The position numbers and the translations under genes were made by a program. A DNA stretch of 26,450 bases from Chromera velia (taxonomy: Eukaryota > Sar > Chromeraceae). The notes beneath the pieces are model-generated. The model was not told the DNA's origin. It did no database searches and was given only the letters and a program-made list of their open reading frames with translations. Location: NCBI GenBank assembly GCA_018398765.1, contig JAHBMJ010003922.1, positions 5,001-31,450 of the forward strand, given 5' to 3'. Positions 6,077 to 23,562 of the stretch are shown here, in pieces. Every line of letters begins with the position of its first letter. The stretch's first letter is position 1.

Positions 6077-8968
6077 TGTTTCCAAATGACGGAACTGCTA
6101 GTTAAAATTAGTCTCACTTGGAGCTTCTCAGCCCTTGTACGGTCTTTCTTCGATGTCAGGAACGAATTTGCTGGTAGGAAGTGCCTTCTTTCCGCTCACC
6201 TCCCTTTCTTCGGTGTCTTCCTTTTTCTCTCTGCTGTCCGAGAAGATCATTCCGTCTCTTAATTTCGCTCTGCAGGTGAGACCAGTTCCTCTCAGGGATT
6301 CTCCTGCTGGCCAGAGGAATTCCTCCAAACTTTCATTACCAACCCGTCGATCTTCCCCCAAGTCGACGCGTCAGACGATCAAGTCGCGGGTCCATCTGCA
6401 GAAATCCGGTATCTGGAATATTTCAATGAAGCAACCTTTGCATGGTCAGCTTGGGACTGCCGCGACGTGCTTTGCATTCACGAATCAGTGACTTCATTGC
6501 CCAAAACTGTAGCGCTGCACCGCTCTGATCCGAGCTTTGCGCTTGCAGGAGAGAACAAAAGTTCGTTTTCTGTTTGCATGATTCGTCCATCATATGTCCG
6601 TATGTTGCCCTTTCATTCGTGGTCGGTTTGCGAAAGAACTGAAGTCAAAGTCAGTCGAGAAATTTTGTGGCCCTGTTCCTCGTGGATGTTCTTCTGAGCA
6701 CCCTCTGTCTTCCGTTCTCTGTCTCTATCTGTCCCCTGACCACTTTACCCTTCGCTCATCGATGTTCTTTTTCGTGGCAGTGAAGGAATGCGTTCCCTCA
6801 AACCGAGGAAATAGGTGTACACCCCATACAACACATGCACGCACGCAGGTACTACTCACCCATCTTCACTGGAGGTCCCAGTTGGAGTCTTGTTTTTGAC
6901 TCGTCCTTCAATATGGACACCCGGACAGATGCTGAGATCGCAGGTTCGTCTTGCATATGTCTATCCGGTATCATCTCAGCCAAAACTGATATTCGCTTGT
7001 TCTCCTGAGGAGTGTTTCTTATACTTCTTTCTCAGAGCATGGATGTTCAGCGGTCCTTTCCACAACTGCTCATTCTTGCATAATGCATGAAGATGCATTC
7101 GATGTTCGTTTTGTTTTTTCGTTTGCATCGTCAGAAGAATCCAGCAATGATGCAGCTCTTCTTTTTCTTCCTTTTCTGCGCTGCAGCTGGAAACTCCCAA
7201 CAGACGATGCTGGCCACCAGTCTGACGGTGCCAATTGCTGCCGGGACAAACTTTAGAGCAGAGGACGGCGTCGCACTGGCAGAGAGATGGGATGATTGGA
7301 TGAATGGCGCATTCACAGAGGGACACAAAGAGGCGATCCCTTCCTGTGTGGGCGCACCCAACTTTCGAGGCTTCGCGCTCTTAGAGCTAGCCGTCGGATG
7401 GCAGACCGTCCAGGAGTTGGCAATGTGCGTGCGTCAGTCTGGGGGCTAGGCAGGCAGTCAGCCGGTGGCTGTGGACACATACTGAAAAGTAGAGTTCTTT
7501 TTTGAGGTTTTGTGGTCTTGTCTGCAAGTAAGCAGGTGTCCTTTCTTCCCGCTATCTCGAACCACGTGGTGAAAGGTAGTCCTGCGGTTTGTTGTCTCTT
7601 TGTGTAAAGCCGAGCAATCTGGTACTTTTTGCTTTGCTCACGTGTCGCTTCTTCTTTCTTGTCACTGCCTCTCCTGAATTCCTCTGTTGTCTTCCTGCGT
7701 GGTTTTCTCACGGGCTCAGCCCGTTCGCTCTTGGGTGTGTGTACAAACGTGTGGAACGATTATGAAACATACGCGAATTCATTCATAGCAGGAAAGCAAA
7801 TGTGTACGGAAGGAACAGAGAAACTAATTGTCGCCCTCTTCTTTCCTTCCCTTTGCTTTGCCTTGCTTTCCTTTGCAGAGCTGCCGTGCAAGGAGTGGGC
7901 ATCACCATTGGGCTTGGGTTTGCGGCACTTCTGTTGATTGTGAAAAACTGGCGGACGGCCTTCGCAGCGACGCTCTCCCTTCTTTTTTCCATCATCTGCT
8001 CTGTGGGCTGTATGCTTCTGTATAGAAAAATCGGGCAGGTGGAGTCGGTGGCATTGATCGTCGTCCCGGGACTTGCGATTGACTACAGCGCCCAGTTGGC
8101 GCTTGCCTATCACTGGTATGCCGAGACGGAGAATGTGCCCCCGGGAAGGGCAGGGAAAGCAGCTCGACAGAAAGAGAGGGAATTTCGGATACGGGATTCT
8201 CTGGGAGGTTCGGGTCAGGCTGTGTGTCTGGGTTTCGTGACCACTGGGGTTGCCTGTGCCCTTCTGATTCCCTCGACTTTGAGTTTCTTTACGGCGTTCG
8301 CAGAAGTCGTCATTCTGGTGTTGGCGTGGTCTTTCGTCTTCGCCTTCACATTCTTCATCCCCCTCATGACCACCTCTCTAGCCCCAGCAGGCCGCAGGGG
8401 GTACCTGCCTGTGTTGAAGAAGAAGGAATTGGACGCTGCAGAAAAGCGCATCTGTCATTTGATAGGCAGCAGGAGAGCAAGTCTGAAAGGATGGAATTGG
8501 CAGGCGCAGTTTTTCAGCAGCAACAGCCGCAAAGCCAGCAGGGTCAGCATGGACGACGTCCTGTCTGCTCGAGAGCGGGGAAGCGTCCCTGTTGACCAGG
8601 TTGACAAGAGTGGGCAGGTGGAAGGTGAAGAGAAAGAGGATGTGCCTAGACTCTCTGCCGTCTCTCCCCAAGTACCTGCAGAAGACTTTGGAGAGTCCCC
8701 GTACAGTCAGCAGGAGCAGATGCAGGAGGAGAGGGTAGAGCGTTCTGACTGGACACAAAGAGAAGTGATAGAGATTCCAGAAGACGAGGTGGATGAGACA
8801 AGTCCTGACGTGGGAGCCGCAGGGCGAGGTTTGGGTTTGGGTGAGGCTCTGAGGAGGCCGGGGGAGAGAGGGCGGGAAGGCATTGAAAGGGCCGGGACTT
8901 CCCGGGAGTTAGAGCGGCACGGTGACGTGGACAGCGTGCCTGACGGGGGAGGGGACGTTCTAGACTGA
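197..8968 (+). CDS. Patched/Dispatched-like RND family membrane protein, 14 exons
   Basis: Exons: 197-362, 532-576, 905-1317, 1937-2253, 2522-2836, 3213-3288, 3816-3979, 4248-4379, 4657-5313, 5744-5979, 6276-6444, 6849-6943, 7187-7424, 7879-8968. All phases match; the spliced length is 4113 nt (1370 residues, TGA stop). Start chosen at ATG 197, preceded by CCCACC, just before the first membrane segment. Seen: TM1 about residues 31-52; a large loop to about 370; TM2-TM6 about 373-530 with a TM4 motif GASADP (434-439); a hydrophilic linker of about 165 residues; TM7 about 709-733; a second large loop; TM8-TM12 from about 1014 with the TM10 motif GLAIDY (Asp1076); and a charged acidic tail of roughly 200 residues. 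Two repeats of 1+5 membrane segments with an Asp in TM4 and TM10 are the RND hallmark shared by Patched, Dispatched and NPC1, which move lipids or sterols using ion gradients. The actual substrate is unknown. Least certain: exon 2 and the donors of exons 5 and 6. Confidence 0.85.
577..904 (+). other. Intron 2 of the RND gene
   Basis: Assigned because donor GTCAGT at 577 leaves phase 1 and the acceptor TTGCAG ending at 904 restores the frame into the first loop. It holds a G-rich run near 637-645 and a purine-rich stretch. A second possible exon after the AG near 770 was not used because it does not keep frame. Confidence 0.6.
1318..1936 (+). other. Intron 3 with tetranucleotide and GT tracts
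   Basis: Donor GTGAGT, acceptor GTGCAG, phase 0. It contains CAGT/GTCA-type tetranucleotide runs (about 1535-1580), CTCA-type runs (about 1597-1640) and a GT dinucleotide run (1891-1933) that abuts the acceptor. Open frames over this stretch are simple-repeat artefacts except for exon 4 itself. Confidence 0.75.
1891..1933. repeat. (GT)n microsatellite beside an acceptor site
   Basis: About 21 perfect GT units run directly into the GCAG acceptor of intron 3, standing where a polypyrimidine tract is normally expected. Confidence 0.95.
2802..2842 (+). repeat. 41-bp direct repeat, copy 1 (end of exon 5 plus its donor)
   Basis: Perfectly matches 2881-2921, offset 79 bp. It covers the last 35 coding bases of exon 5 and the GTCAGT donor at 2837. 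Confidence 0.95.
2881..2921 (+). repeat. 41-bp direct repeat, copy 2 (inside intron 5)
   Basis: Identical to 2802-2842, so it carries a second intact-looking GTCAGT donor at 2916. Using that donor would add 79 nt and shift the frame, so it is judged intronic. The 38 bp between the copies is TATG/ATGT-rich. Confidence 0.95.
3289..3815 (+). other. Intron 6, pyrimidine-rich
   Basis: Donor GTCCGT, acceptor TTCTGCAG, phase 0; it joins the TM4 exon to the following loop exon. The last 130 bases are dense in CTTCC/TCCCTC, a strong polypyrimidine tract. No coding signal of its own was seen. Confidence 0.65.
5376..5390 (+). repeat. T15 homopolymer in intron 9
   Basis: An uninterrupted T run within intron 9 (5314-5743); a second T-rich run lies near the acceptor (about 5703-5726). 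Confidence 0.9.
6051..6075 (+). repeat. (GT)n microsatellite in intron 10
   Basis: About 12 GT units in intron 10 (5980-6275). Confidence 0.9.
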
Positions 8969-9934: not shown

Positions 9935-12535
9935 TTATGGTGAAGGCAGGATTGAGCGTCCGATAAACCTGTTCCCTTTCTGCAAGTTCTCTCGCGACCA
10001 CATCGGTTGCAAATTCGAGAAATGCAGACGCGCAATTTGAGTTTTTGTGTCTGGTTTTTCCCCGTCTGGCCCTGGGTACATGATGGGAGTGATGTGGTCA
10101 ACGTGCCAGTGAGTCCCGTAGTTCTCCCACGACATTCCGGGGTTGTCGTGGAAGTTGTTTTTTTCTAAATGGGACTTCAAGTGATCAATCGAGCATCCCA
10201 GATACTCGTGGGAACGCTTCCGTGGAGGACTAGGGTTGCCTTGTCTAAAGGTGACGGCACACCTTTGCGCCCATCTCCGGGCCGATTTTGTCAAGCGAAA
10301 GAGGTAGTCCTCTTTGTACCTTTCTCGTTGTCGTCGTTTTTTTTCTGCAAAGGCTGGGTTGTCCTTCTGGCATTCGGGGCATTCGGTTCTTCTGCGATGG
10401 TGTTCACAAATGCTCCCCCCTCCACACTCTTTGCATCTCGAACGTCTGCGATCGTGTTCGCAAATCTGGCTACCTTTACATTCCCGACAGTTATCTCGTC
10501 TGCGGCCGTGTTCACACATACTGCTTCCACCACATTCCTTACAGTAACTCTTCTGACGACCGTGTTTGCACAATGCACTTCCTCCGCACTCCTTACAGTG
10601 GTGTCGCTGACGGTCATGCTCACAGATTGCACTGCCACCACATTGTCTGCAGAACCGTCGTTCGCGGCCATGTTCACAGATTCCCTTCCCCCCGCACTCT
10701 TTGCACACATACTTTACTTTTCCGTGGGGGCAGCGAGCTTTCCGTCTTTCCGTTGGACAATCGGATGTAGATCGGAGAATATGGCGAGTTATGCGAACTG
10801 AGTTCACAGTGTCAGATATTTTGGCAAACGCAAGCGCATTGCCAAACCACTCAGTACCTTCTCTGAGAGTGGGCGACTCGCCGACAACACCATCAGGACC
10901 AGAACCTGTCGTCTGCAGCACTTGCTCAGATAAACAGGGCCGCCAGGCAGTCCGAATACCCTCCTGCAAAGTACCAGATGAGGGTTTGCGGGACTCTTCG
11001 CAGAAAGAGCCCACACACCCCTCTTCTGCGCCATGCGGCTGTTGAACGGCCTGTCCTTCCCGCCGGGCGGTTCTCTTTGAAACCGCAAAATCCGCACCCA
11101 CAGCCACATAACAGAAGAATCTGTGTCGAGAAGGGACAACAGGATCTGAAGTGTCGTGAGAGGGGGCACCCTGAAAGCTGAAAACCCCCCCTCGGAGCGG
11201 CAATGGACTTGTGAGACGCACAGTCTGTAAGTGATAGGTTGCGGCCACTTTGGGACGAAGGGCCGCAGTTCGGGCACCATCACCTGGAGTGCACTTCTGT
11301 GCGGAAGTGCATGTTTGGAACCTGACATGAGAACGGAATGGTCTGCCAATAAACCTGTTCCCTTTCTGCAAGTTCTCTCGCGACCACATCGGTTGCAAAT
11401 TCGAGAAATGCAGACGCGCAATTTGAGTTTTTGCGTCTGGTTTTTCCCCGTCTGGCCCTGGGTACATGATGGGAGTGATGTGGTCAACGTGCCAGTGAGT
11501 CCCGTAGTTCTCCCACGACATTCCGGGGTTGTCGTGGAAGTTGTTTTTTTCTAAATGGGACTTCAAGTGATCAATCGAGCATCCCAGATACTCGTGGGAA
11601 CACTTCCGTGGAGGTGGGGACTTTCCACCGCGGAACGCAGAAAGGCACCTGTACACGGATGCCTGGATAATTTTCATCAAGCGATACGAGCAGTCCTCTC
11701 TGTACCTTTTTCTGGCTCTTTCAACCGCCCGCTGCTTTCTCTGTGCAAAGACAGGATTATCCTTCTGGCATTCGGGGCAATGTGAACGAAGACGGTCGTG
11801 TTCACAAATTTCGCTCCCTTTGCAATCGCGACACTGAGAGCGCCGGCGACCGTGTTCGCAGATTCCTGCCCCATGACACTCCGCACATCTGTACTTGTCC
11901 CGACCATACGCACAAATTCTCGTCCCTCCACACTCTTTACAGTAGTATTTGTTGCGCCCGTGTTCGCAGAAGACCCCACCCCCACACTCCCTACAAAAGT
12001 ATCGTTGGCGCCCATGCTCACAAATTCCTTTTCCCCCGCACTCCTTGCAATGGTACCTTCTCCTCCCATGGGGACAGTTTGCATTTGCTCGTTTTTCATG
12101 GGCAAGTGAGAGATAGTGCGAAAGGGTCGAATTGCTGTCAGCAGAACTTCTCTCTGCTGTAACGCGTCTCGCTGTGGAGCACGCCCTTTCCTTCAATTTT
12201 GCAACTTCTTTTCCGCGAATAATAACGAGAGCTGTATAGGGTGCACTGAATTTTATTGAGCGCATAGAAACTCCATCGGCGCCATCAAGACTCGTATGGC
12301 TCAATTTTGTAGCTTTGTTTGAAAAGAAACGGTAACCATCAGAAGTCACTGTGGCAGACCAGGTGTACTGTGTCCAGAAGCGCAAAACCGCGCCCGCCCC
12401 ATTAGACGTGCGCGAGGAAGACACGCGTTGATTTGGGGCAACCCAGATAGGCCGCTTTGTTGCTGCCCCTGCAGAGCCTGTGAGCGTCACGGAGGGTCGA
12501 GCAGCCTGGCGCAACACCTCGAGTGCACGTTTCAT
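9935..12535 (-). CDS. Duplicated Cys/His-array plus HNH nuclease protein, 866 aa
   Basis: One intronless frame from ATG (12533-12535) to TAA (9935-9937). Order: a basic, acid-poor N-terminus (residues 1-31) resembling an organelle targeting peptide; array A of six 18-residue modules (154-258); HNH domain A (about 308-396) with HVDH at 349-352, NLQ at 379-381 and EN at 387-388; a low-similarity linker (about 400-600); array B of seven modules (602-724); HNH domain B (about 770-858) with HVDH at 811-814. Module pattern: C-x-H-x6-C-x2-C-x5, usually CEHGR...CKECGG. HNH domains cut DNA using a metal held by the His residues; the modules look like small zinc-binding units. Similar Cys/His repeats occur in algal and protist proteins, from general recall. 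DNA binding by the arrays is inferred. Possibly two genes fused by tandem duplication; an unseen intron in the linker cannot be excluded. Confidence 0.85.
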   Translation of the reverse strand: MKRALEVLRQAARPSVTLTGSAGAATKRPIWVAPNQRVSSSRTSNGAGAVLRFWTQYTWSATVTSDGYRFFSNKATKLSHTSLDGADGVSMRSIKFSAPYTALVIIRGKEVAKLKERACSTARRVTAERSSADSNSTLSHYLSLAHEKRANANCPHGRRRYHCKECGGKGICEHGRQRYFCRECGGGVFCEHGRNKYYCKECGGTRICAYGRDKYRCAECHGAGICEHGRRRSQCRDCKGSEICEHDRLRSHCPECQKDNPVFAQRKQRAVERARKRYREDCSYRLMKIIQASVYRCLSAFRGGKSPPPRKCSHEYLGCSIDHLKSHLEKNNFHDNPGMSWENYGTHWHVDHITPIMYPGPDGEKPDAKTQIARLHFSNLQPMWSRENLQKGNRFIGRPFRSHVRFQTCTSAQKCTPGDGARTAALRPKVAATYHLQTVRLTSPLPLRGGVFSFQGAPSHDTSDPVVPSRHRFFCYVAVGADFAVSKRTARREGQAVQQPHGAEEGCVGSFCEESRKPSSGTLQEGIRTAWRPCLSEQVLQTTGSGPDGVVGESPTLREGTEWFGNALAFAKISDTVNSVRITRHILRSTSDCPTERRKARCPHGKVKYVCKECGGKGICEHGRERRFCRQCGGSAICEHDRQRHHCKECGGSALCKHGRQKSYCKECGGSSMCEHGRRRDNCRECKGSQICEHDRRRSRCKECGGGSICEHHRRRTECPECQKDNPAFAEKKRRQRERYKEDYLFRLTKSARRWAQRCAVTFRQGNPSPPRKRSHEYLGCSIDHLKSHLEKNNFHDNPGMSWENYGTHWHVDHITPIMYPGPDGEKPDTKTQIARLHFSNLQPMWSRENLQKGNRFIGRSILPSP
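9963..10228 (-). repeat. HNH-domain segment, copy B of an internal duplication
   Basis: Matches 11349-11614 at offset 1386 bp, with two mismatches in 266 bp (10048/11434 and 10216/11602). Both change the residue: Thr830 versus Ala368, and Arg774 versus Cys312. Identity stops abruptly at both ends. Confidence 0.93.
10364..10732 (-). repeat. Array B: seven 54-bp Cys/His modules
   Basis: Residues 602-724 of the HNH protein. The first five modules after the leading CPHG unit keep C-x-H-x6-C-x2-C with a near-constant CEHGR/CKECGG frame; the last ends in CPECQKDN, as in array A. The His is present in all seven modules. Positions 6-9 and 16-18 of each module vary most. Confidence 0.9.
10810..11348 (-). 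other. Linker between the two array-HNH units
   Basis: Encodes roughly residues 397-575 of the fused frame. It has no recognisable domain and no clear similarity to the N-terminal 150 residues. It may be former intergenic or leader sequence caught when the unit duplicated, or may hide a spliced intron; the open frame across it argues for translation. Confidence 0.4.
11349..11614 (-). repeat. HNH-domain segment, copy A of an internal duplication
   Basis: Partner of 9963-10228. It encodes about 88 codons covering the whole catalytic core from before the HEYLG motif to the NRFIG motif. No synonymous differences from the other copy were found. Confidence 0.93.
11762..12076 (-). repeat. Array A: six 54-bp Cys/His modules
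   Basis: Residues 154-258. Same module pattern as array B, but one module fewer. The fourth module (from Cys208) has Tyr210 where His is expected, so it would lack one ligand. The linker after the array is Lys/Arg-rich. Confidence 0.9.
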
Positions 12536-13385
12536 TCTAAAATTACTTCGTCCAATATATATGTGATGCTCTTCTCAGGTTGTTTGCTTGAGGTACGAAG
12601 ATGTCAAACTCAGAGTTGGGGATTAGTGGTGAAGGAAACTATGTATACGTCACGAGAGAGAGAAGGTGTCGCACTTTTTAGTATATATGTATTGTAGCTC
12701 TATGTATACGTATATATATGTATATAGCTATATTGCTGCATGCATGCATGCTATATGCATGCTTCATGATCGCGAGAGAGCATGCATGCATGCATGCATC
12801 TTCTCTCTTTTTTTTTTTTTTTTTGAAAAACATTTGCCGTGGCCCCCGGCCATGGTATCTGTTAAGGCCCTTAGCCGCACCTATGGAAAAAAAAAAGTCG
12901 AATTACCAATAAATCGGGTTACATTTGCCTTTCGGGACCCGCGCTTTCCGGCAACTCTACAGCGCGTGCATGGCGAACATGCACCTTTTGAACCTTGATG
13001 TATCAGTACATATATACATATGCAAAAACACACATAGAGGCGAATTGTACATAGATTCGATCATCTGTGTAGTTTTCAAGGAAGGCGATAGAGCACACCG
13101 TCTAAGTGAAGCTGTTCTAAACTGCTCCGTTGTTTAACTATACTACTAAGCTCACTGGTAAGTTAAAACATGCCGCTTTACAGAGTCAGGAGTAAGCCGC
13201 ACCACGACTGAGTGCGCTTGACAAAGAGGAAAAACGGTTAATTTGATCTGCAGGAACCTCTTTTTGCCCGTCTTCTTTCTCTCTACTTAGCCCCTCTTGC
13301 CGTTCTTCGATCAGCACCTGGTTTCTCGACTTCCTTCTACCTCCACTTACGGATTTGGGACGCAAAATACTGTCTATATATAGTG
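12536..13385. other. Intergenic region upstream of the HNH gene
   Basis: No gene seen. It presumably holds the promoter of the minus-strand HNH gene next to 12536. It contains ATATAT runs, clustered GCATGC palindromes and a T18 run (about 12808-12825). Confidence 0.5.
12738..12800. repeat. Cluster of GCATGC palindromes
   Basis: Repeated TGCATGCATGC strings appear at 12738-12764 and 12780-12800, separated by CGCGAGAGAG. Smaller clusters lie at 441-484, 4189-4213 and 16050-16062. Confidence 0.85.
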
Positions 13386-13478
13386 TGTATCGCTGTAGTA
13401 TTTGCTTTGAAATATTGTAGAGAGGCTTATCATGTATGGGTCCAGTGCTTGGTGAGTACAAGAGGGAGAGATGTGAAC

Positions 13479-14995
13479 AGAAGCCGTTTGGGCCTGTGGA
13501 TAAAGCTAGGTAAGCAAGTGTGTGAACAGAAGCCGTTTGGGCGTGTGGGTGAATGTTTGGGCGTGCGGGTGCATGGAGAAAGAGAGGCATGGAAAGGAAA
13601 TATGTGCAGTAACAGAATCCACTTAGGCCTACAGCTGGATGAATAAAGAGAGATGGAGAAAATGAGCGTGTTTATGAGTATGTATGAGTTTGTGAACAGA
13701 AGCCGTTTGGGCGTGCGGGCGAGATAAGGAGAATGAGTCATACAACAGAAGCCGCTTGGGCCCATGGATGAATGAAGAGAGATCAATTGTATATCATTGA
13801 AGAAAAGCCGCTTGGGCCGCTGGTTAGGCCTGTGGATGAATGAAGAGAGATCAAGTGTGTGAACAAAAACATACAGAAGCCGCTTGGGCCTATGGATGAG
13901 TGAAAAGAGATAGGGAGAACGAGTATGTGAACAGAAGTCGTTTGGGCGTGTGGGTGAATGAAGGGAGACAAGGAGATACAGGGAGAGCGAGTATAAACAG
14001 AAGCCGCTTGGGCGTGTAGGTGAATGAAGGGAGACAAGGAGATACAAGGAGAGCGAGTGTGTGAACAGAAGCTGCTTGGGCGTGTGGATGAATGAAGGGA
14101 GTGTGTGAATAAAAGCCGGTTGGGCGTACGAGCGAAGAAAGAGAGACAAGGAGAATGAGTATGTGAACAGAAGCTAGGAACAGGAGCCGTTTGGGTCCGT
14201 GGATGAATGAAGAGGGATCAATTGTGTGTCATTAAACAAAAGCTGCTCGGGCCTATGGTTAGGCTTCGCTAGGCCTGTGGATGAATGAACAGATATCAAG
14301 TGCGTAAACAGAAGCCACTTGGGCCTGCTGATGAATTAAAAGAGACAGGGAGAGTAAGTGTGTGAACAGAAGCCGTTTGGACGTGTGAGTGAATGAAGAG
14401 AGACAAGGAGATACAAGGAGAGCGAATGTATGAACAGAAGCCACTTAGGCCTCATGCAGTGAATCAATGAAGAATAATGAAGAGAGACATGGAGAACAAG
14501 TATGTGAACAGAAGCCGTTTGGGGTATCACGACGGTGTAGGTACATAAACACAGACAAGGCCGCTTGAGAAATAAACCGCAGTAAAAGTGATCAATGAGC
14601 AGTGTTCCTAGATTCAGAACAGATGGGACGAACCGGAACCTTTTGACAGACTAGGCCAGATCCGCCCCTCATATATGGGGACGCGGCATGCATAACAAAA
14701 ACCTAAATCATCACAGACAGGGAAAGCAAGTGTGTGAACCGGTGTGAACAAGCTAGGTGAACAGGAGCTGGTTGGGCGTGTGGGTGAATAAAAAGAGATA
14801 AGGACTCACACAAGCATGTTAGCAGAAGATATTTATATGGGCGTGTGAGTACCTAAATGAATAGAGACAGCCTGTTACTGAGAGAGAATGAAACTCAGTG
14901 TGTAAACAAAACTTTAAGCTGCTAGGGCCTGAAATAGAAATAAACGAAGAGAAACAGAGAGAGCAAGTATGTGAACAAAAGCTGTTCGGGCGTGT
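13479..14995. repeat. Degenerate minisatellite, about 19 units
   Basis: The core GAACAGAAGCCGYTTGGGC recurs near 13479, 13524, 13696, 13743, 13803, 13872, 13927, 13996, 14063, 14107, 14170, 14237, 14307, 14366, 14431, 14507, 14757 and 14973, with a weaker unit near 13610. Units are spaced mostly 45-75 bp and are often followed by GTGGGTGAATGAAGRGAGAC. The number of bases between cores varies, so this is an old, decayed array. Its long minus-strand open frame is a by-product of the repeat. Confidence 0.85.
14579..14714 (+). repeat. Inverted repeat, left arm
   Basis: Aligns at roughly 80% identity to the reverse complement of 16878-17012. The best block is CTCATATATGGGGACG followed by a conserved ATAACAAAAACCT. 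Confidence 0.8.
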
Positions 14996-14999
14996 GGAT

Positions 15000-15190
15000 G
15001 TGAGAGTGTTAATGAAAGCCATTAACTTTGCGCATGTGGGTGAGTGATCGAAGAGAGACAGGGAAAATGAGGGAGTAAGTGAGTGAGCAAGTGAGACAGT
15101 AAGTGAGTGAATTAGTGAGGAAAGCAAGAATAACTCAGTGAGTCAGTGACTAAGTGTGTTGGTGAGTGAGTAAGTGAGCACAACCAACTA
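15000..15190. repeat. GTGA/AGTG tetranucleotide-rich tract
   Basis: Imperfect GTGAGTGA and AAGTGAGTGAGC strings, continuing the minisatellite on its right side. Confidence 0.7.
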
Positions 15191-15988
15191 CAGCAACTAA
15201 TACAGCAAGCATAGCAAGCGTATAGTTTAGAACTTGTATAACGTTGTGTTCAAACATTTTATAGACTAGCTGACAGTCTCAGTCACAGGTAGATGATTTA
15301 AAAGAGCAAGTTGATAATAGAAGGCGTATAATGGCGTATATAATGTTTGGCTACTATATATGCTACTATGCTACTACTAGAATGGCCAAAATATAAATGA
15401 AAGTAAATGAAAGAAACATTATAGCATATGTGTCTGTATATAAAAGACTTATATATTAACTCCGTAAATAAAAAATAAAAATGTAAGTAGATTTAAGCGG
15501 GGAGCACTGTGATTTTTTTTTTTAATAAGCAAAAATGAGTTGTTAAAGATTTATCAATAATGTATTGCTGCGGTTACAGTTTTATTTTCTCTTTCACGTT
15601 TATTCACGTTAACACCATGTGTTAGCGAAGTCCTTGTACGTCATTAATTTTCTTATCAGCAAATGTATCTAATAGCAGAGCTCTTCTTATTTCTTCTTCT
15701 CAACCGTTTTGAAGCCCGTCCAGCCGTCTCTGGCCCTCTACGGCATTTACAGATACCGCGGCTATGCTTTTGCGCAGTCAACAACCGTGATTGAGGGTTT
15801 TGTCATGCACTATATATTAATATGGGAAGGGGAACCTGTTGCATGCATATACCACAATCGATCATGGACGCACCTCTCAGTGCTTTCACCCTATCTCACC
15901 CCTGGGGGCCACGGTATGTCTCGTAGGGACATTACAATGAATTGTATATATCGCCTTGCCAGGCGTATATATACGGGTCTGGTATACA
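15191..15988. other. AT-rich intergenic DNA
   Basis: Stops in all frames to about 15700. A mixed segment at 15700-15980 includes a weak third match (about 15785-15830) to the inverted repeat at 16878-17012. No gene supported. Confidence 0.5.
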
Positions 15989-17012: not shown

Positions 17013-17610
17013 GTAGCTTATAACTTGTGGCTTCTGAATTAACAGCAAGATAGCTCTAGATAGCTCTTCGAACTGGTATAAAAATCCTCTCCTGCAAGAT
17101 GTGTTAAGTCCCTGCATGTCTGGGGCCTCGCACTTTTGATCAATCCCCGCCTTGTTGGGTATATTCGAGTGATCTATCGATTCGACGTGAAGGTGGGATC
17201 CAAAAATATATATTGGTCAAAACTGCCCCAACTGATCTCCCCTTCTCCTGTTTTTCCTTTCCTTGTCTATTCCTTAATTGTGTTAAATCAAATGTGGAAT
17301 ATCTTTAAGTACTTCTTTCTCTTCAACTCTTTTTTTTTTTCTTCTTCATGCAACGGTTCTCTTCAACTTTTTATTTTCTCAACAGATTGTACTCAACTTT
17401 TTTTGATTTCCTATCGTTTCCTTATTTTTTCCTTCCTTCAGTAGTTCTGCCCTCCCTCTTTCCTTCTTCTTTCTTTATTCCCCTCCGTTTCTTTAGTCGG
17501 CCAATCTAACATACACCAAGTACTCCCTCCCTAGCAATATTTTAGTAACTTTAAAACTGCGGGCCCCTACATATATATAGTACATGAAACTTTCTTATCA
17601 GTGTTGTTCT
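17013..17610. other. Pyrimidine- and AT-rich spacer
   Basis: Long T/C-rich runs on the plus strand (17220-17480). No gene, RNA or repeat boundary recognised. Confidence 0.5.
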
Positions 17611-18457
17611 GAGCTCCTCCTACTCGTAGGTGAACAGACAGGAGTGGAAGCTGAAGGCTAGAGGTCTCTCTAGGTGAGAAGAGGTTGAGAGGCTAGAGCA
17701 GTCTTGTATACAGACGTATGTGTTCGTGTGTATGTATGTGTGTGTGTATGTATGTCTGTTGTCTATGTCTGTTGTCTGTGTTTATGTCTGTGTCTATGTC
17801 TGTGTGTGTGTGTATATGTGTGTGTGTGTATGTGTGTGTATGTATGTGTATGTGTATGTGTGTGTATATGTGTGTGTGTATGTGTACGTATATGTATGTC
17901 AATTCAGAAGGTTTAAGTTAAGAGTTGATCGATTCAATTGAATGAGAAGAAGAAGCGAGTTGATCGTTCCGATAAAAACTTGAGGATTCGCGAAAATCAT
18001 CTCAAATCAACATTTGCATGTGTATGTTCATACCAGTCCAATTACCGTATACATAATCAGCTCCAGCCAGTCTGCCATAGACATAATCGCCTTTAACGTG
18101 TTTATCATAAATATAATTGACTAATCAGCTCTTGAGTGTATCTACCGTAGACATAATCGGGTTCAGTGTGTCCTTCAGTCTTTATTATCATCCTCTTCAA
18201 TAAGCTTAATCCAACTTGCTTTATGATAATCTTACTGTCTTTTCTACCTTCACTTGCATTCTTATTTCATCCTGTGTTAACCTTTTCCTCTTTCTTTTAC
18301 TTTCTTTTAATTCTCTTAAGGTTTTGAATCATTCTGAATGAATCAATTTCTTTTCTTATTTTTTATTTTATTTTTATTTTATAGTACCAAATTCTTTTCT
18401 TCTTAACTCTTTAAAGCAACTACTTATAACGACTTTTAACTGCTAATTTCAACATAA
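17611..18457 (+). repeat. ~850-bp dispersed repeat, copy 1 (CpG-depleted)
   Basis: Aligns end to end with 22699-23562: a GAGCTCCTC start, a TG-rich tract (about 17715-17898), then about 560 bp of close similarity ending TTTCAACATAA. Compared with copy 2 it repeatedly shows TG or CA where copy 2 has CG. No open frame outside the TG tract, and no terminal TG...CA typical of LTRs. Confidence 0.92.
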
Positions 18458-22262: not shown

Positions 22263-22707
22263 CTGGATTCCAGTGCAGTCTACTCGTCAGGGGTTTTGCC
22301 GAAGGGGGTGGGAGTGAAGGTGTACTTGTGGCTGTTGGTGGGTAGGTGTAGGCGCTGGGGTTCAGGAAGTATAAGTCCAGCGATGCGATTCGGGCACACG
22401 TATCTATGAAGTCTCTCACGTAAGGGTTCCAGCGACACGGGGGTGGAACTGCTAGGTCGAGAAGTAGAAGATGAGGTTGGATGAAGAGCGAGCGCAGGTG
22501 TTTGGTCTCGAAGGAGAGGAAGTAGCCGAAATACTCTCCTCGCCCAGGTCTCCTGGCGTTTGGTGTCTTCGCGAGGAAGAGGGTGCTCTCGGTGGCCTGG
22601 ATGAAGGCGATCTTGTTCACGTCAAGTTCTAGAGAGGACTTGTTCCTGTTGCTCAGCTGGTTGAGGCTTGACTCTCGCGGCAAGTCACCACGTGTTTCGA
22701 GCTCCTC
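22216..22707 (-). CDS. Hypothetical protein fragment, coding-like codon use
   Basis: Minus-strand frame open for about 163 codons, from the TAA at 22708-22710 down to its own TAA at 22216-22218. It has no ATG near its upstream end, so it is probably an internal or final exon, or a truncated copy. Codons in the first 60 residues end overwhelmingly in C or G (AAC, AAG, TTC, CTC, ATC, GAG), unlike the AT-richer surroundings, which supports real coding use. A Pro/Ser/Thr-rich stretch precedes the end. No family recognised. The 850-bp repeat copy 2 begins inside this frame (22699), so the repeat lies at its upstream edge. Confidence 0.45.
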   Translation of the reverse strand, partial: EELETRGDLPRESSLNQLSNRNKSSLELDVNKIAFIQATESTLFLAKTPNARRPGRGEYFGYFLSFETKHLRSLFIQPHLLLLDLAVPPPCRWNPYVRDFIDTCARIASLDLYFLNPSAYTYPPTATSTPSLPPPSAKPLTSRLHWNPDQARVNREALPNFLN

Positions 22708-23562
22708 TTATCGTAGGCGAACAGACAGGAGTGGAAGCTGAAGGCTAGAGGTCTCTCTGGGCAAGAGGAGGTTGAGAGGCTAGAGAAGTCTTGTGTACAG
22801 ATGTGTAGAGACGTATGTATTCGTGTATGTGTATGTGTGTGTGTGTGAGTCTGTTGTCTGTATCTGTTGTCTGTGTCTGTTGTCTGTGTCTATGTCTGTG
22901 TCTATGTCTATGTCTATGTCTGTGTGTATGTGTGTGTATGTGTGTGTGTGTGTGTGTATGTGTGTGTGTGTGTGTACGTATGTGTATGTTAATTCAGAAG
23001 GTTCAAGTTAAGAGTCGATCGATTCGATTGAATGAGAAGAAGAAGCGAGTCGATCGTTCCGATAAAAACTTGAGGATTTGCGTGAAATCATGTCAGATCG
23101 ACATTTGTATGTGTATGTTCATACCAGTCCGATTACCGTGTACATAATCGGCTCCAGCCAGTCTGCCGTGGACATAATCGGCTTTAACGTGTCTGTCGTG
23201 GACATAATTGACTAATCGGCTCTTGAGTGTATCTACCGTAGACATACTCGGGTTCAGTGTGTCCTTCAGTCTTTATTATCATCCTCTTCAATAAGCTTAA
23301 CCCAACTTGCTTTATGACAATCTTACTTTCTTTTCTACCTTCACTTGCATTCTTATTTCATTCTGTGTTAACCTTTTCCCCTTTCCTAAGTTTTCTTTAC
23401 TTTCTTTTAATTCTCTTAAGGATTCGAATCATTCTGAATGAATCAATTTCCTTTCTTTGTATTTTATTTTATTTTGATTTTGATTATAGTACCAAATTCT
23501 TTTCTTCTTAACTCTTTAAGGCAACTACTTATAACGACTTTTAACTACTAATTTCAACATAA
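22699..23562 (+). repeat. ~850-bp dispersed repeat, copy 2 (CpG-retaining)
   Basis: Direct-orientation partner of 17611-18457, with a TG-rich tract at about 22810-22989. It keeps CG at most sites where copy 1 has TG or CA. Flanks differ from those of copy 1, and no target-site duplication was found by eye. Confidence 0.92.

Follow-up and report, generated by a model that had tools for sequence, protein, structure and literature searches.

Engineered zinc-finger nucleases couple an array of zinc modules to a FokI nuclease and act as a pair, and the PPR, OPR and RAP proteins form large nuclear families built on repeated modules, with N-termini of the organelle type. HNH homing endonucleases of phages that carry NUMODs (I-HmuI, I-TevI type) tether a nuclease to small modular binding elements, and the relevant passages of one source describe the NUMOD type as known mainly from phage (PMC3943268). 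Here, we analyze a 26,450-nucleotide stretch of Chromera velia contig JAHBMJ010003922.1 (hereafter the window, meaning the whole stretch), in which a minus-strand open reading frame (ORF) at positions 9935–12535 encodes 866 amino acids (aa) in two units, each running from an array of 18-residue Cys/His modules through a basic connector to an HNH core. The genome of the window contains dozens of genes of this array-HNH family, most of them with two units. The family belongs to a known kind, the modular-binding HNH nuclease; what is new is the module and the paired, expanded eukaryotic form.

In its proposed way of working, with arrays of zinc-type modules attached to nucleases that would act as a pair, the family resembles the engineered enzymes, but it is natural, uses HNH instead of FokI and a different zinc-type module, and has both halves in one chain. 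Unlike the NUMOD enzymes, it repeats a single zinc-type module 3–13 times and carries two nuclease units at most eukaryotic loci. Repeated modules, organelle-type N-termini and large family size are shared with the PPR, OPR and RAP organelle RNA factors, whereas the modules and the nuclease are unrelated to theirs. RAP proteins are described, in part of one paper, as expanded in Alveolata (PMC8190603). Phage HNH proteins resembling endonuclease VII (phrog_1035, phrog_28061) likewise contain H-[VI]-D-H, N-L-Q-P and then N, but the four named ones that we opened are single-unit, array-free proteins with a different N-terminus.

A family of two-unit genes

In the genome of the window (177.8 Mb, 4040 contigs), the 83-residue HNH core gave 124 matches, some of them partial; together they form 72 loci, spread over 70 contigs, with two HNH matches at 51 loci and one at 21. 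The exact pattern WHVDH occurs at 111 sites in the genome and at 3 in the reversed control. The second HNH core lies in the frame of the first at 48 of the 51 two-HNH loci, where chance would give 17 (one third), and at 35 of the 51 both cores are in open frames for which the same length is given, taken here as one frame. A non-coding linker was rejected on the strength of the 48 shared frames, and the presence of two units in one frame is a genome-wide trait of the family and a conserved design, not a local accident.

Within the ORF, the strict module motif C-x-H-x6-C-x2-C occurs 12 times and in the five other frames of the window not once, which rules out a chance origin of the motif. A thirteenth module, at aa 208, is in register and has Tyr where the His ligand is expected. 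With a period of 18 residues, the modules form an array of six in unit 1 (aa 154–256) and of seven in unit 2 (aa 602–722). HVDH is found at aa 349 and 811 and NLQPMW at aa 379 and 841, followed by EN, so that the residues expected of an HNH, or His-Me finger, nuclease are in place (in the first core, aa 349–352, aa 379 and the EN after NLQPMW). The ORF, strand, coordinates and single-frame pair of units given in the initial annotation are confirmed. A correction concerns the divergence of the two units: the DNA of the two HNH cores is 98.9% identical over 269 bp, whereas the arrays have diverged, and residue identity over the whole units is 73%.

For comparison among copies, we used 21, namely the window and 20 loci fetched with their flanks. 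In twelve of them, a single open frame holds a pair of H-[VIL]-D-H motifs together with eight or more strict modules, and in two of these 12 ORFs (L070, L081) a stop lies inside the second HNH. The number of modules per unit varies across copies from 3 to 13. In 16 of the 17 copies whose N-terminus was scored, the first Met has an upstream stop or the segment end within 46 codons, and in one the distance is 91 codons.

Two observations concern possible additions to these proteins. The ORF of L080 (contig C3574) runs past the second HNH into an apparent classical C2H2 zinc finger, which none of the other 11 aligned ORFs has. HNH matches also lie in very long open frames on contigs C3569 (2488 aa), C1470 (2276 aa), C13 (2051 aa) and C3600 (1751 aa), possibly as parts of larger fusions.

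The HNH core and known nucleases

The HNH core matches phrog_28061 (2.3e-11) and phrog_1035, annotated as endonuclease VII (1.5e-9), and its D-H, N and second N are invariant in all 11 aligned rows, the two of the window included; together these support an HNH-type nuclease, as originally proposed. Pfam contains an endonuclease VII family, and the window ORF and its parts had no match to an endonuclease family in that database at E up to 10. A match of the HNH profile to a designed repeat in the PDB (E 2e-7) was discarded as spurious because it covers only the helix preceding the core and no single stretch passes. A tblastn search with the ORF yielded 111 phage records at E up to 1. Among plasmids, three records were reported (E 3e-12, 2e-8 and 0.7). 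The arrays had no significant match in named phage records (best E 0.2, 12 records), and a module scan of the locus of phage record H22 (L019) found none.

The module and its predicted structure

Open segments with at least three strict modules contain, across the 21 copies, 290 strict modules and, between them, five in-register modules that lack one ligand, the latter a lower bound as broken end modules go undetected. Among the spacings listed, 245 are exactly 18, three are 36, and 54, 34 and 31 occur once each. A larger set of 373 modules from 26 loci comprises 367 distinct sequences, collected with a pattern that imposes the three Cys and nearly imposes the His. Variability is highest at module positions 9, 6 and 8 (nonsynonymous differences per site, pN, 0.485, 0.405 and 0.350), followed by 16 and 17. 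The residues at positions 6, 8 and 9 correlate beyond shuffling, a correlation that is inflated by relatedness. They form 178 kinds of triplet among 273 inner modules; therefore, there is no small alphabet of the TALE type, and a discrete code of that kind was rejected.

Modeled alone with 11 sequences, array 2 reached a mean predicted local distance difference test score (pLDDT) of 87.5 and a predicted template modeling score (pTM) of 0.56, with the five models spanning pLDDT 71.5–87.5. The same small fold recurs in each module, with a one-turn helix at module positions 7–9, so the modules, as the initial annotation had assumed, are predicted to fold regularly; they may bind zinc. The model of the whole unit is weaker (pLDDT 73.7, pTM 0.33).

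Neither the module nor the HNH core reaches the cut-off of any Pfam family, and NCBIfam gave no match. The nearest approach in Pfam is that of the array of viral locus L008 to the Acb2/Tad1 hairpin (PF24729; 26.9 bits against a cut-off of 27, best stretch 17 residues), one of 11 arrays searched; the window arrays do not match. Classical C2H2 zinc fingers are spaced C-x2-4-C-x12-H-x3-5-H and the EsV-1-7 repeat of brown algae C-x4-C-x16-C-x2-H. The module differs from the former in spacing and in its 18-residue period (PF13465, 9 bits against a cut-off of 40) and from the latter in ligand spacing, and the EsV-1-7 family is absent among the Pfam hits. NUMODs were absent, both from the matches of the ORF and its parts (E up to 10) and from those of 11 arrays (E up to 1). 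Searched against PDB sequences, the ORF gave ribosomal zinc proteins of the S27ae/eS31 type (E 0.052 at best) and sucrose synthase (E 1.2). Our literature searches returned no description of the 18-residue module ('CEHGR' occurs only in one unrelated paper) and no paper that joins HNH with Chromera; the main text of PMC4501334, the part of that source covered, contains neither HNH nor zinc finger.

Selection and gene conversion

The ratio of nonsynonymous to synonymous substitution rates (dN/dS) was computed by region for six pairs of copies. Where calculable, it shows the arrays and HNH cores to be under purifying selection, at 0.06–0.10 for the arrays (3 of 12 comparisons, with silent sites saturated in the remainder) and 0.06–0.17 for the HNH cores (11 of 12).

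Across 21 genes, HNH1 and HNH2 differ at 0.173 of sites within a gene and at 0.264 between genes. The effect is larger in the first half of the core (0.096 within, 0.212 between) than in the second (0.248 vs 0.315), and these figures were matched by none of 2000 permutations. For the connector preceding the HNH, the difference is 0.434 within and 0.449 between genes (19 genes; 16 of 2000 permutations), and array identity is 0.646 within and 0.627 between genes (12 genes; 3 of 2000). The connector and arrays thus carry only a slight trace of gene conversion, which must have been concentrated on the nuclease, chiefly on its first half.

The N-terminus

The initial annotation pointed to a basic N-terminus, and this feature recurs in every copy scored. 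The first 30 residues of the window ORF contain six K/R and one D/E and have a hydrophobic moment of 0.76, compared with 0.44 in shuffles; all 17 copies scored (four of the 21 were left out) have at least four K/R and no more than one D/E over this length. Such N-termini suggest an import signal for an organelle, and since they are presequence-like and have no long hydrophobic segment, the mitochondrion is favored over a complex plastid. Myzozoan mitochondrial genomes are described, in parts of one source, as having fragmented rRNAs and extensive recombination (PMC9550989). We conjecture that, if the host is a myzozoan, these would give array nucleases work to do.

Viral and prokaryotic relatives

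Twelve viral contigs carry the modules, in 17 ORFs altogether if the inverted copy in 3300037485_001433 is counted once, and in 14 of these ORFs they precede HNH-type cores of more than one type. The HNH class of the window is found in viral loci L008 and L012 (phrog_28061), which have seven modules of the window type and an HNH identity of 46–48% but differ from the window gene in being single-unit and in having an extra N-terminal Cys-Cys ribbon. By motif, a second HNH type is found in L001, L009 and two L066 genes (phrog_3118 and phrog_3322), and L061 shares the PHROGs of that type (phrog_3322, 4.1e-31). The types are partly linked, because phrog_1035 is matched by the proteins of L009 and L066 as well. 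The match of L063 is to a different endonuclease VII family, phrog_423, and a further type, recognized as nuclease by motif only, comprises two L011 genes, L014, L015, L062 (truncated at the contig end) and L093.

The genome collection gave three loci. L051, in a Poseidoniales single-cell genome, combines an array with the HNH class of the window (phrog_28061, 2.9e-11); L050, in an Opitutaceae metagenome-assembled genome, has an array and a nuclease by motif only; L052 has no strict module in open segments longer than 60 aa. The HNH residues were checked in relatives with the same arrays and are retained in L008, L012 and L051.

The L008 and L012 contigs may be polinton-like or virophage-like. 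Also on L012 are genes for an ATPase-like protein and for a weakly protease-like one, both below Pfam cut-offs, and two neighbors on L008 had no match. A tree of HNH cores (21 rows, including 12 of the 47 eukaryotic HNH sequences, of our own choosing) groups the eukaryotic copies (96/93), and their place among the phage and virus rows is not resolved in it.

Two rearrangements were seen on the viral contigs. L060 (4938–5642) and L062 (4938–5369) contain the same array-nuclease gene, the nuclease end of which is replaced in L060 by an apparent IS200/IS605-type transposase, and in IMGVR_UViG_3300037485_001433 (L008, L010) the array gene and its neighbor are present twice as an inverted repeat.

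Interpretation and alternative explanations

With roughly even confidence, we favor the reading that this is a multigene family of array-guided HNH nucleases, in which a virus-like gene was acquired by a eukaryote, doubled and expanded, and the arrays steer a pair of nucleases. In each unit, the N-terminal string of zinc-type modules would bind a stretch of DNA or RNA, the basic connector would link the array to the HNH, and the HNH would nick the bound strand. As most loci encode two units per chain, one protein would deliver two different arrays and two nuclease domains to the target, as a built-in nickase pair. The gene would have entered with a single array-HNH unit, like the genes now seen on virus contigs; doubling would have followed, and ordinary duplication would have carried it to 72 loci or more. 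Later change would have fallen on the arrays, in module number and at residues 6, 8, 9, 16 and 17, as gene conversion kept the HNH pair alike inside each gene. The basic N-terminus suggests that the protein may work in the mitochondrion.

A bolder version, which we consider rather unlikely, is that these are natural paired array nucleases in which each module recognizes a set portion of nucleic acid by way of residues 6, 8 and 9, on or beside the one-turn helix, and the two units cut adjacent sites. There would then be dozens of sequence-specific nucleases, probably for the organelle genome, and the module would be an all-purpose targeting element, which viruses combine with several types of HNH nuclease. 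As to the array-guided interpretation given initially, the HNH type, the predicted regular fold of the modules, the conserved two-unit frame and the basic N-terminus are supported, but the number of triplet kinds speaks against a simple code.

Several results weigh against the array-guided reading. The ratio pN/pS (nonsynonymous to synonymous differences per site) is below 1 at every module position, with silent sites near saturation, and this, at the variable positions too, together with the lack of a small residue alphabet, lends no support to a modular code. Foldseek with the array model found no PDB chain, from which novelty of the fold does not follow, and the array profile found no known nucleic-acid-binding fold in the PDB (best eS27, E 0.084, then Csy2, E 0.91). 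At 16 of the 51 two-HNH loci, the two cores are not in one open frame, and little constraint is evident in some pairs of copies for the N-terminal regions (dN/dS 0.34–0.97, 5 of 6 calculable) and the linkers (0.29–0.89, 5 of 6). Only 5 of 17 copies have an N-terminal hydrophobic moment that exceeds shuffles at the 0.05 level or better. Among the viral array ORFs, 3 of 17 have no nuclease (only an array in L064 and in its duplicate L065, an interrupted gene in L060), and five of the six motif-only ORFs (all except L093) were scanned and matched no nuclease family. Finally, the HNH of an array-free Klebsiella phage protein is as identical to that of the window (48%) as are those of L008 and L012 (46–48%); hence, this comparison does not establish viral descent.

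The enzyme could instead be a structure-guided junction or flap nuclease, its HNH recognizing branched DNA like endonuclease VII, with arrays that add only affinity and two units that fit the two strands of a junction. The endonuclease VII label of phrog_1035, the matches of several viral array proteins to PHROGs of this name and the multitude of triplets, which is contrary to a simple code, all point this way, yet Pfam gave no endonuclease VII match at E up to 10, and the kept ligands, variable surface residues and varying array length exceed what affinity would need; we consider this explanation unlikely. Quite unlikely, in our estimate, is a selfish, homing-endonuclease-like family that spreads via cutting and recombination, with the arrays as site readers. 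Array relatives do occur on virus contigs, passages of two sources describe as homing endonucleases the HNH genes found in phages and in polinton-like viruses (PMC12220804, PMC3943268), and the copies are dispersed, with long open frames and a good part of them broken. However, selfish genes do not usually show the low dN/dS seen here between diverged paralogues, and the flanks of the 21 copies share little: their comparison gave 55 upstream pieces at E up to 1e-5, with most of the 45 listed joining the window to one copy, and, downstream, a single piece of 47 bp. These flanks revealed no ends of an element, and a transposon with terminal ends was rejected. What is shared, at 12835–15229, is a stretch of about 2.4 kb upstream of the gene that is 85–90% alike and roughly colinear with the upstream region of the copy on contig C442 (L068), and the pair therefore looks like a segmental duplication.

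A nuclear defense family directed at DNA viruses or transposons, its arrays having diversified so as to recognize invaders, would account for the many paralogues, the range of array length, the residue variation at fixed module positions and the broken copies, as in birth-and-death families. It is improbable given ratios below 1 throughout the module, presequence-like N-termini that point elsewhere than to the nucleus, and the PADLOC results, namely no defense family at E up to 0.1 when the window ORF and its two HNH parts were searched, and only weak matches (E 0.012 and 0.049) for two of five viral array proteins. Very improbable is the explanation that two separate genes, or a decayed locus, are joined by chance read-through with an untranslated linker. 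The weak protein constraint in the linker and N-terminal region and the stops at some loci fit it, but the excess of same-frame HNH pairs does not, nor does the stop count in the linkers of the 12 aligned ORFs (none in frame, 46–71 in each of the five other frames), which is illustrative only because these ORFs had been picked as open.

What gives the case its weight is an 18-residue zinc-type repeat that reaches no Pfam cut-off, precedes more than one type of HNH core on virus contigs and, in one eukaryote, has expanded into a mostly two-nuclease family. If the arrays choose the target, nature would have supplied a new means of targeted cutting, along with a panel of natural variants ready for decoding; if they do not, there is still a large nuclease family and a clear case of gene conversion focused on a nuclease.

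Other features of the window

Table 1. Parts of the two-unit ORF, in window coordinates
Feature	Positions	Strand	Remarks
Two-unit ORF, 866 aa	9935..12535	-	one of 72 HNH loci in the genome
N-terminal region, aa 1–153, starts MKRALEVLRQAARPS; basic, presequence-like start; varies among copies	12077..12535	-	
Array 1, six 18-residue modules, Tyr for the His ligand in the fourth	11768..12076	-	
Basic connector 1, array to HNH	11591..11767	-	hardly homogenized with connector 2
HNH core 1, aa 316–398, HVDH and NLQPMW...EN	11342..11590	-	
Inter-unit linker, about 200 aa, fast-evolving, weakly constrained, stop-free in frame	10733..11341	-	
Array 2, seven 18-residue modules	10370..10732	-	modeled alone, pLDDT 87.5
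Basic helical connector 2	10205..10369	-	helices 127–142 and 144–164 in the unit model, pLDDT about 58–80
HNH core 2, aa 778–860	9956..10204	-	98.9% DNA identity to core 1

Elsewhere in the window, no Rfam family was found. A plus-strand ORF at 7802–8968 looks like part of an RND/Patched-type membrane protein, without a Pfam match at E 0.01. A stretch at 13744–14523 is minisatellite-like, with units of 58–66 bp, and the segments 17607–18457 and 22696–23562 are direct copies of a 0.85-kb repeat with 88% identity that contains GT-rich microsatellites.
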